From: Mariprofundus sp. KV
GTDB taxonomy: Bacteria; Pseudomonadota; Zetaproteobacteria; Mariprofundales; Mariprofundaceae
Direction of reading: 5' to 3'
Length of the DNA: 64,000 nt
Assembly: GCF_013387475.1 (NCBI RefSeq)
Contig: NZ_VWNB01000006.1
Location: forward strand, 62,001-126,000
The notes under the pieces are model-generated. The model was not told where the DNA came from and ran no database searches. It saw only the letters and a program-made list of their open reading frames with translations. Below are positions 40,771 through 42,082 of the stretch, piece after piece. The position numbers and the translations under genes were made by a program. How positions within the stretch are numbered: position 1 is the stretch's first letter; the number at the start of each line of letters is the position of its first letter.

Positions 40771-41052
40771 TTATCTATACAGGCAGAGGTAGGCGGACTG
40801 GCCGATGGAGCGAACGCCGAAGCTCACACCCTTCTCAACAGTGAACTGATCACCGGCCACGTAGGAGACCCAGACATCGGTGCCCGGATGTTTAACATCG
40901 AGTTGACCGGAGGTGACCGACATAATCTCTCTGGATGAGGTGCCGAATTCGTACTCACCCTCAGCCATGACACCGATCGTTGCAGGCCCATCTGCTGTTG
41001 CAAATGCGATGGATTTCACATTGCCATCGAAGTATTCGTTGGTTCTGAACAT
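40771..41052 (-). CDS. ppnP: Pyrimidine/purine nucleoside phosphorylase PpnP
   Basis: The 93-residue cupin-like protein matches the PpnP (formerly DUF1255) family. It starts [13 protein letters not shown], with [26 protein letters not shown] and [18 protein letters not shown]. It phosphorolyses several nucleosides to the base and ribose 1-phosphate. It is preceded by a hairpin-rich segment of about 185 bp. Confidence 0.9.
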
Positions 41053-41074
41053 AAGATATTCCTTTATCAGTTGA

Positions 41075-41237
41075 TTTAAGGATACTCTGAAAAAGTCAGA
41101 GTATCCGAGCAGGCTATGGATGGCCTGCCAACATCATGCACTCTCAGTGCTTGATGTTGTGAGCAAAGGAATAATGACACTTTTTCCTTTGCCTGCTGAA
41201 TACCTACACGGATGTAGTTATTCAGAGCATCCTTAAA
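41075..41237. repeat. Nested palindromic element between speB and ppnP
   Basis: The outer arms tttaaggatactctga (41075-41090) and tcagagcatccttaaa (41222-41237) are inverted repeats with one mismatch in 16. Between them are five consecutive hairpins: 41080-41106 (11-bp perfect stem), 41109-41128, 41129-41159, 41163-41192 and 41196-41225. The left outer arm can pair either locally or with the far end, and agcaggc/gcctgct forms a further inner shell. There is no open reading frame. It may be a MITE-like insertion or a structured leader of ppnP. Confidence 0.7.
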
Positions 41238-41239
41238 TT

Positions 41240-42082
41240 TTAAGCGATGTCGCTGCCAGCCAGCAGCAGCATCTCACGTACCGCCTTGGCCGCCAGCACT
41301 GAAGAGCAGCCGGAGCTATCCAGCATCGGTGCAAGCTCAACCGCATCGAGCGCAACAATATCAACCGCATGCATCACCTTGATAAAGCGGTTGAATGTCC
41401 ACCAGTCGATGCCACCCGGTTCGGGGGTACCGGTACCGGAGAAGCAGGCCGGATCGAAAACATCCAGATCAACAGTCAGGTAAACCGGCCGCTCAGCGAT
41501 CCACTCAACCAGCTCATCGAGATCATCAGCCCGGAATGTGGTCAGCGTACCGAAACTGTTCATCACCTCATACTCACGTTTGGTGCCCGAGCGGATACCG
41601 AGCTGGCGAATATTCTCATCACCAATCAATTCGGAGATACGACGCATCACACAGGCGTGGGAGAGCTCAGTACCGAGATAATCTTCACGCTGATCGGCAT
41701 GGGCATCCAGCTGTACCACCACCAGATCGGGATACTTCTCATAGACCATCTCAACCGCAGGCAGTGTCACCAGATGTTCGCCACCAAGAATAAAGGGGAT
41801 CACATCATCATTCAGACACTCATCCACCGTTTCCCTGATAATGGCGAGCACCGATTTGGTATCGCCCATCGGCAGTTCAAGATCGCCCGCATCGGCGTAG
41901 TGAATCGATTCCAGATCACTATCGAGGTAGGGGGAGTAGGTCTCAACACCATCAGAAGCGTCGCGAATGGCGGCAGGGCCGAATCTTGCGCCGGGGCGGA
42001 ATGAGACGGTACCGTCAAACGGGGCGCCGATAATGCGAATATCGTGGGGCTCTTTCAGATCCCGATCAGTAAAATCAAACAT
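41240..42082 (-). CDS. speB: Agmatinase
   Basis: This 280-residue ureohydrolase has the Mn ligands of the family in GGEHLV, DAHADQRED and DLDVFDPA. The C-terminal EVNP-like segment is ALDAVELAPMLDSSG. It cleaves agmatine to putrescine and urea. It is divergent from the carboxynorspermidine dehydrogenase gene and works after SpeA, encoded at 56.7-58.6 kb. Confidence 0.9.
   Translation of the reverse strand: MFDFTDRDLKEPHDIRIIGAPFDGTVSFRPGARFGPAAIRDASDGVETYSPYLDSDLESIHYADAGDLELPMGDTKSVLAIIRETVDECLNDDVIPFILGGEHLVTLPAVEMVYEKYPDLVVVQLDAHADQREDYLGTELSHACVMRRISELIGDENIRQLGIRSGTKREYEVMNSFGTLTTFRADDLDELVEWIAERPVYLTVDLDVFDPACFSGTGTPEPGGIDWWTFNRFIKVMHAVDIVALDAVELAPMLDSSGCSSVLAAKAVREMLLLAGSDIA

Follow-up and report, generated by a model that had tools for sequence, protein, structure and literature searches.

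In the window, i.e., the 64,000-nucleotide stretch of Mariprofundus sp. KV DNA analysed here, ppnP and a speB-like gene, the named relatives of which place the genome with Mariprofundus, are encoded on the minus strand on either side of a palindromic element. The first-pass annotation had described at 41075-41237 a nested palindrome in which outer inverted repeats enclose five consecutive hairpins. This architecture was confirmed, the coordinates being correct within one base: the outer repeats (41075-41090 and 41222-41237) pair at 15 of 16 positions, and positions 41080-41225 consist of five consecutive hairpins. The biological unit extends from 41076 to 41236, with TTAA at either side; its ends were set by the alignment of copies and by the flank duplication. 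The features of the locus are the following:

40771..41052, minus strand: ppnP (pyrimidine/purine nucleoside phosphorylase; PF06865), left of the element, which is antisense to it
41076..41236, plus strand: whole element, 161 bp when the two target-site duplications are counted and 153 bp when they are not; full-length match to model R1, 179 bits
41076..41079, no strand: left target-site duplication TTAA (YTAR), from flank comparison
41080..41106, plus strand: hairpin 1, left terminal inverted repeat GGATACTCTGA and its own inverted copy
41109..41128, plus strand: hairpin 2, loop AUGGAU at 41116-41121, CsrA-type; closing pair U-G here and C-G in most copies
41129..41159, plus strand: hairpin 3, loop GUAA or GCAA in many relatives, not in the window copy
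41163..41192, plus strand: hairpin 4, YNRCRY-type loop in most copies
41196..41225, plus strand: hairpin 5, loop ACGGAU at 41208-41213, C-G closed; CsrA-type site CACGGATG
41217..41232, minus strand: right terminal inverted repeat, inward reading GGATGCTCTGAATAAC, common to the ends of resident multicopy IS elements
41233..41236, no strand: right target-site duplication TTAA (YTAR), from flank comparison
41240..42082, minus strand: speB-like gene (agmatinase family; TIGR01230 above cut-off, PF00491), right of the element, with its stop codon facing it

The 153-bp element contains no open reading frame of 60 amino acids, and the plus strand of the window copy is antisense to both the speB-like gene and ppnP. 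The predicted RNA fold of the 41060-41250 region reached -78.6 kcal/mol, compared to -42.8 +/- 3.9 kcal/mol for dinucleotide shuffles (z = -9.1; 0 of 200 shuffles as good). The left outer arm can also form an alternative, perfect 11-bp local hairpin (41080-41090 with 41096-41106), and the two exclusive folds that had been proposed from the single sequence were recovered at -71.3 kcal/mol for the local hairpins and -68.0 kcal/mol for the paired outer arms, a difference of ~3 kcal/mol in favour of the former. The alternative outer pairing is explained by the presence of terminal inverted repeats.

The first-pass annotation had offered two readings of this palindrome, a foldback transposable element or a switching leader for ppnP. 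A BLASTN search for copies and target-site duplications, which it had named as a check, yielded 29 matches to the element in the 2.53-Mb genome, and a covariance model detected ~43 distinct loci at E <= 0.01, with 30 at scores of at least 57 bits. The boundaries of the copies are sharp (YTAR/GG...CC/YTAR; TTAA/153 bp/TTAA for the window copy), and the 4-bp flanks are identical in 22 of the 37 intact-ended copies, compared to 6.8 expected from random reassignment of the flanks (none of 10000 shuffles reached the observed count). In the nearest relative (G001; 88-89% identity over speB and ppnP) the orthologous spacer is devoid of the element, which is also absent before ppnP in G008 and G012. 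The ends are those of resident insertion sequences: the 16-bp GGATRCTCTGAATAAC is common to the element and to the ends of multicopy IS elements of the same genome, and the end 15-mer, with up to 3 mismatches allowed, occurs 143 times (16 for the control), many of these occurrences lying 110-127 bp from contig ends. As these contig ends read YTAR followed by GGATACTCTGAATAACTCG... and then by the transposase start MDQLSFAEAEYDHKRRKTRREAFL, multicopy IS elements with the same ends broke the assembly; the bodies of these IS copies are masked, and the cognate IS5-type transposase of this genome was therefore read at its N-terminus only. A second multicopy repeat has GGATGCTCTGAATAACCCC ends. L135, a complete relative in G016, has ends of this kind, is flanked by a CTAG duplication and encodes a transposase of the IS5 family (NF033581). 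These data make it well supported, from sequence comparison, that the element is a mobile, non-autonomous IS5-type MITE. The transposable-element alternative was therefore upheld by the many copies, the 4-bp YTAR duplications, the resident IS5-type ends and the empty orthologous sites, but its foldback part was not: the element is an IS5-type MITE instead of a classical foldback element. An IS630/Tc1 origin with TA duplication was dropped, as the genome has no DDE_3 transposase and the flanks match over 4 bp.

Several side observations were made on these repeats. Contigs C2, C5-C11, C22, C24, C26 and C28 of the same genome break ~110-200 bp inside at least two multicopy repeats that have the ends of the element, of which one starts an IS5-type transposase and the other begins with GGATGCTCTGAATAACCCC. 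Variant copies at L034, L098, L122, L123 and L017 have ~40-80 extra bases between hairpins, other copies have lost internal hairpins (L125), and the hairpins thus seem modular. Copies are mostly intergenic, often directly at stop codons, they decay at many loci, and they adjoin dozens of other genes; one of them adjoins an SAH riboswitch (L181, 1695-1769; RF01057, 55.3 bits).

Alignment of 57 copies from the same genome and ~20 relatives showed that the 54 pairs of the five helices are standard in 92.8% of cases. Changes on both sides of a pair were found in 170 cells, whereas shuffles gave 46.5 and slid controls 27-52; in a more diverse set of 58 copies, which was fitted to the model and hence favours the structure, 395 such cells were found against 101.6 in shuffles. 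For both alignments, 0 of 500 shuffles had covariation as high. Among non-Watson-Crick cells, G-U exceeds A-C on the plus strand (135:74; 126:65 in the 58-copy set, or 27 pairs against 13, p 0.04; 27:10 in distant members), although these counts, like the covariation cells, come from related sequences and are hence non-independent. The G-U excess indicates that the folding strand is the plus strand, be it RNA or single-stranded DNA.

Hairpins 2 and 5 have loops that read ANGGAN and are C-G closed, so that two hairpins carry A(N)GGA(N) loops. In both loops, column diversity is low at the A, G, G and A positions and high at both N positions. Among the 58 copies, GGA is present in loop 2 of 47 and in loop 5 of 50, compared to 2 in loop 3 and 0 in loop 4; the hairpin 3 loop is often GUAA or GCAA (GNRA-like). 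Neither the covariation of the stems nor the conservation of the GGA loops could be seen by the first-pass annotation in one sequence. The published Rsm/CsrA site is CANGGANG, usually in a penta- or hexaloop (PMC6849547), and the ANGGAN loops of hairpins 2 and 5 match it in sequence. CsrA motifs are generally paired because CsrA is a dimer, and the TwoAYGGAY RNA was proposed to bind CsrA by the same paired-motif argument (PMC4333381). From these matches, we strongly infer that the element RNA would bind CsrA. At the Rfam gathering score the window had no match, and a permissive search returned sub-threshold matches only, the best being to RsmY (22.4 versus 57 bits, in L110). Regarding the hairpin 4 loop (YNRCRY; window 41175-41180), its positions 1 and 5 seem by eye to covary (C with G, U with A), and its hexaloop, with a free sixth base, has a layout like that of the iron-responsive-element hexaloop, a resemblance only; viral contigs gave no match to the hairpin 4 pattern, and none was found in plasmids.

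The genome encodes two csrA genes, and the product of one of them keeps MLILTRK and NREE, the positions of which we take to correspond to the RNA-contacting residues of E. coli CsrA. Among Mariprofundaceae genomes at least 85% complete, the element is carried by 31 of the 41 that have csrA and by 0 of the 9 without detectable csrA (Fisher ~4e-5, kinship ignored). The exceptions, in which the element is present and no csrA was found, are the metagenome-assembled G067 and G073 (74% and 69% complete). Outside the Mariprofundaceae, csrA is present in 10 of 10 hosts; one distant host, G169, has nine csrA homologues.

Model R1 found the family in 44 of 100 relatives. With the broader model R2, a phylum-wide sample of 399 genomes gave 48 that carry it, with a patchy distribution covering the Mariprofundaceae, one other family of the same order and six families elsewhere. 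The distant members, from other Pseudomonadota families, have unrelated stems and different ends: at twenty loci (in G171, G057, G040, G048 and others) global identity is 0.58-0.71, compared to 0.53-0.60 for shuffles. They nevertheless keep the five-hairpin plan, with GGA in 21/21 for loop 2 and 21/21 for loop 5 (as the search models contain the GGA columns, this comparison is not entirely blind) and GYAA in 17/21 for loop 3. The G057 copies have GAGCCYGTCGCAG ends with, by eye, apparent 4-bp repeats, and at L176, L181 and L186 of the Mariprofundus sp. KV genome hairpins 2-5 are kept where IS5-type ends are not recognisable. As members with other or no recognisable ends keep the structure, the hairpin core seems older than, or separable from, the transposon vehicle.

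We consider it fairly probable that the element is a non-autonomous IS5-type MITE carrying as its payload a conserved RNA of five hairpins, two of which are predicted to bind CsrA. The IS5-type ends, the YTAR duplication, the dispersed copies, the empty sites, the covarying stems and the ANGGAN loops are established at the sequence level. A resident IS5 transposase would move the element, and transcription of the plus strand would mostly start at promoters of neighbouring genes and read through the copy; the resulting RNA would fold and present two sites to CsrA. It could then titrate CsrA as a decoy dispersed over the genome and also provide a CsrA site locally, within the host transcript. 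The few copies that are transcribed, or from which new copies arise, would be those in which the structure is maintained. At the window locus, a copy inserted between speB and ppnP, antisense to both, and it probably has no function specific to ppnP. A wider proposal, which we put forward only tentatively, is that RNAs with two CsrA hairpins, dispersed by transposases, form a superfamily present in several Pseudomonadota families with different transposon ends. With tens of copies and two sites per copy, such RNAs may constitute a distributed, genome-wide CsrA sponge and thereby shape the Csr network of the hosts.

The arrangement of copies relative to genes bears on these proposals. Between co-directional genes, 29 copies are antisense and 14 sense (ORF-based gene calls); a cis-regulatory role sought from gene orientation thus found no sense bias, and the antisense excess would fit selection against CsrA sites in messages. 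It would also suit an IS5 MITE of the ordinary type, in which the hairpins act at the DNA level: a transposase or a protein of the host would recognise the folded plus strand (at a replication fork or in a cruciform), as happens in REP or attC systems, with the GGA loops as recognition letters. The element is certainly mobile, and folded single-stranded DNA would produce the same wobble bias. However, IS5-type DDE transposases act on double-stranded ends, and five internal hairpins are therefore not needed for transposition; moreover, hairpins 2-5 persist in members whose ends differ or are not recognisable, the loop motif agrees with a known RNA site even in its variable positions, the hairpin 3 loops are often of the GNRA-like type, and genomes lacking csrA lack the element. 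We thus regard the DNA-level explanation as unlikely. Covariation could also be mimicked in a functionless, neutral MITE by template switching at quasi-palindromes during replication, a known mutational process that copies arm onto arm, and decay of copies at many loci would agree with neutrality. Such a process predicts freely drifting loops and no strand bias of wobble pairs, whereas the GGA loops are conserved when the other loops are not, the G-U counts are biased, and the five-hairpin plan persists despite unrelated stem sequences; this disfavoured explanation appears improbable.

The intergenic position of most copies, often at stop codons, and the high stability of the hairpins might alternatively denote a REP/BIME-like structure of 3'-UTRs or spacers with a role in transcript protection or termination, its CsrA-like loops being incidental. 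Yet landing at stop codons is accounted for by the YTAR target, which contains TAA and TAG, the last hairpin is followed by the transposon end and not by a T-run, and incidental loops would not persist in 21/21 distant members, so that we give this explanation very little credence. As to the switching leader for ppnP, a riboswitch-like device for which the two exclusive folds of similar energy could argue, it did not hold: the element is missing before ppnP in G001, G008 and G012, dozens of copies lie beside other genes, the element has no Rfam riboswitch match, and its conserved loops are on the strand antisense to ppnP. The element is hence not conserved in sense orientation upstream of ppnP, and the empty sites and dispersed copies refute a ppnP-specific device, to which we attach almost no probability. 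A very divergent member of the structural family was observed in the speB-ppnP spacer of M. erugo (L059, 4844-5004) and of G002 (L211), in the opposite orientation.

The MITE with a CsrA-type payload resembles several known systems. With IS5-family MITEs it shares IS5-type ends, a 4-bp YTAR duplication, the absence of an ORF, dispersed copies and a cognate IS in the same genome, but its interior is a structurally constrained five-hairpin module, also found with other ends, instead of an IS remnant. As in CsrB/CsrC and RsmX/Y/Z, GGA lies in hairpin loops with a CANGGANG / CAGGAUG consensus and several sites per RNA; however, each of these RNAs has many sites and is encoded by a dedicated single-copy gene under its own promoter, whereas the element is transposable and repeated, has two sites and no recognised promoter, and matches no Rfam family. 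The TwoAYGGAY RNA (RF01731) likewise has two hairpins with AYGGAY loops and is a proposed CsrA ligand, but it was described from Clostridia (PMC4333381), the element gave no match to its covariance model, and the element has five hairpins and is transposable. QMITE1 and QMITE2 of Coxiella burnetii are also bacterial MITE families, with ~50 copies, some of which are transcribed as small RNAs; they are long palindromes not found in other genomes, with no mention of CsrA (PMC5896051).

Our literature search found no relevant paper linking MITEs, dispersed repeats or transposable elements with CsrA, and no paper on MITEs in Mariprofundus. The vehicle, an IS5 MITE, and the loop motif, that of CsrA-binding RNAs, are thus each known in kind; neither their combination nor the RNA family itself turned up in Rfam or in the literature searched. 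The usual view is that MITEs are empty vehicles and that CsrA sponges are encoded by dedicated sRNA genes; a transposable CsrA-type RNA payload, if true, would join the two, and a post-transcriptional network could gain sites by transposition. To our knowledge, no CsrA antagonist has been described in Zetaproteobacteria, for which the element provides a candidate CsrA ligand and a concrete structured-RNA family absent from Rfam, testable with one protein and one RNA. In this iron-oxidising bacterium, the element has the appearance of a CsrA-binding RNA for which transposition is the means of spreading through genomes.
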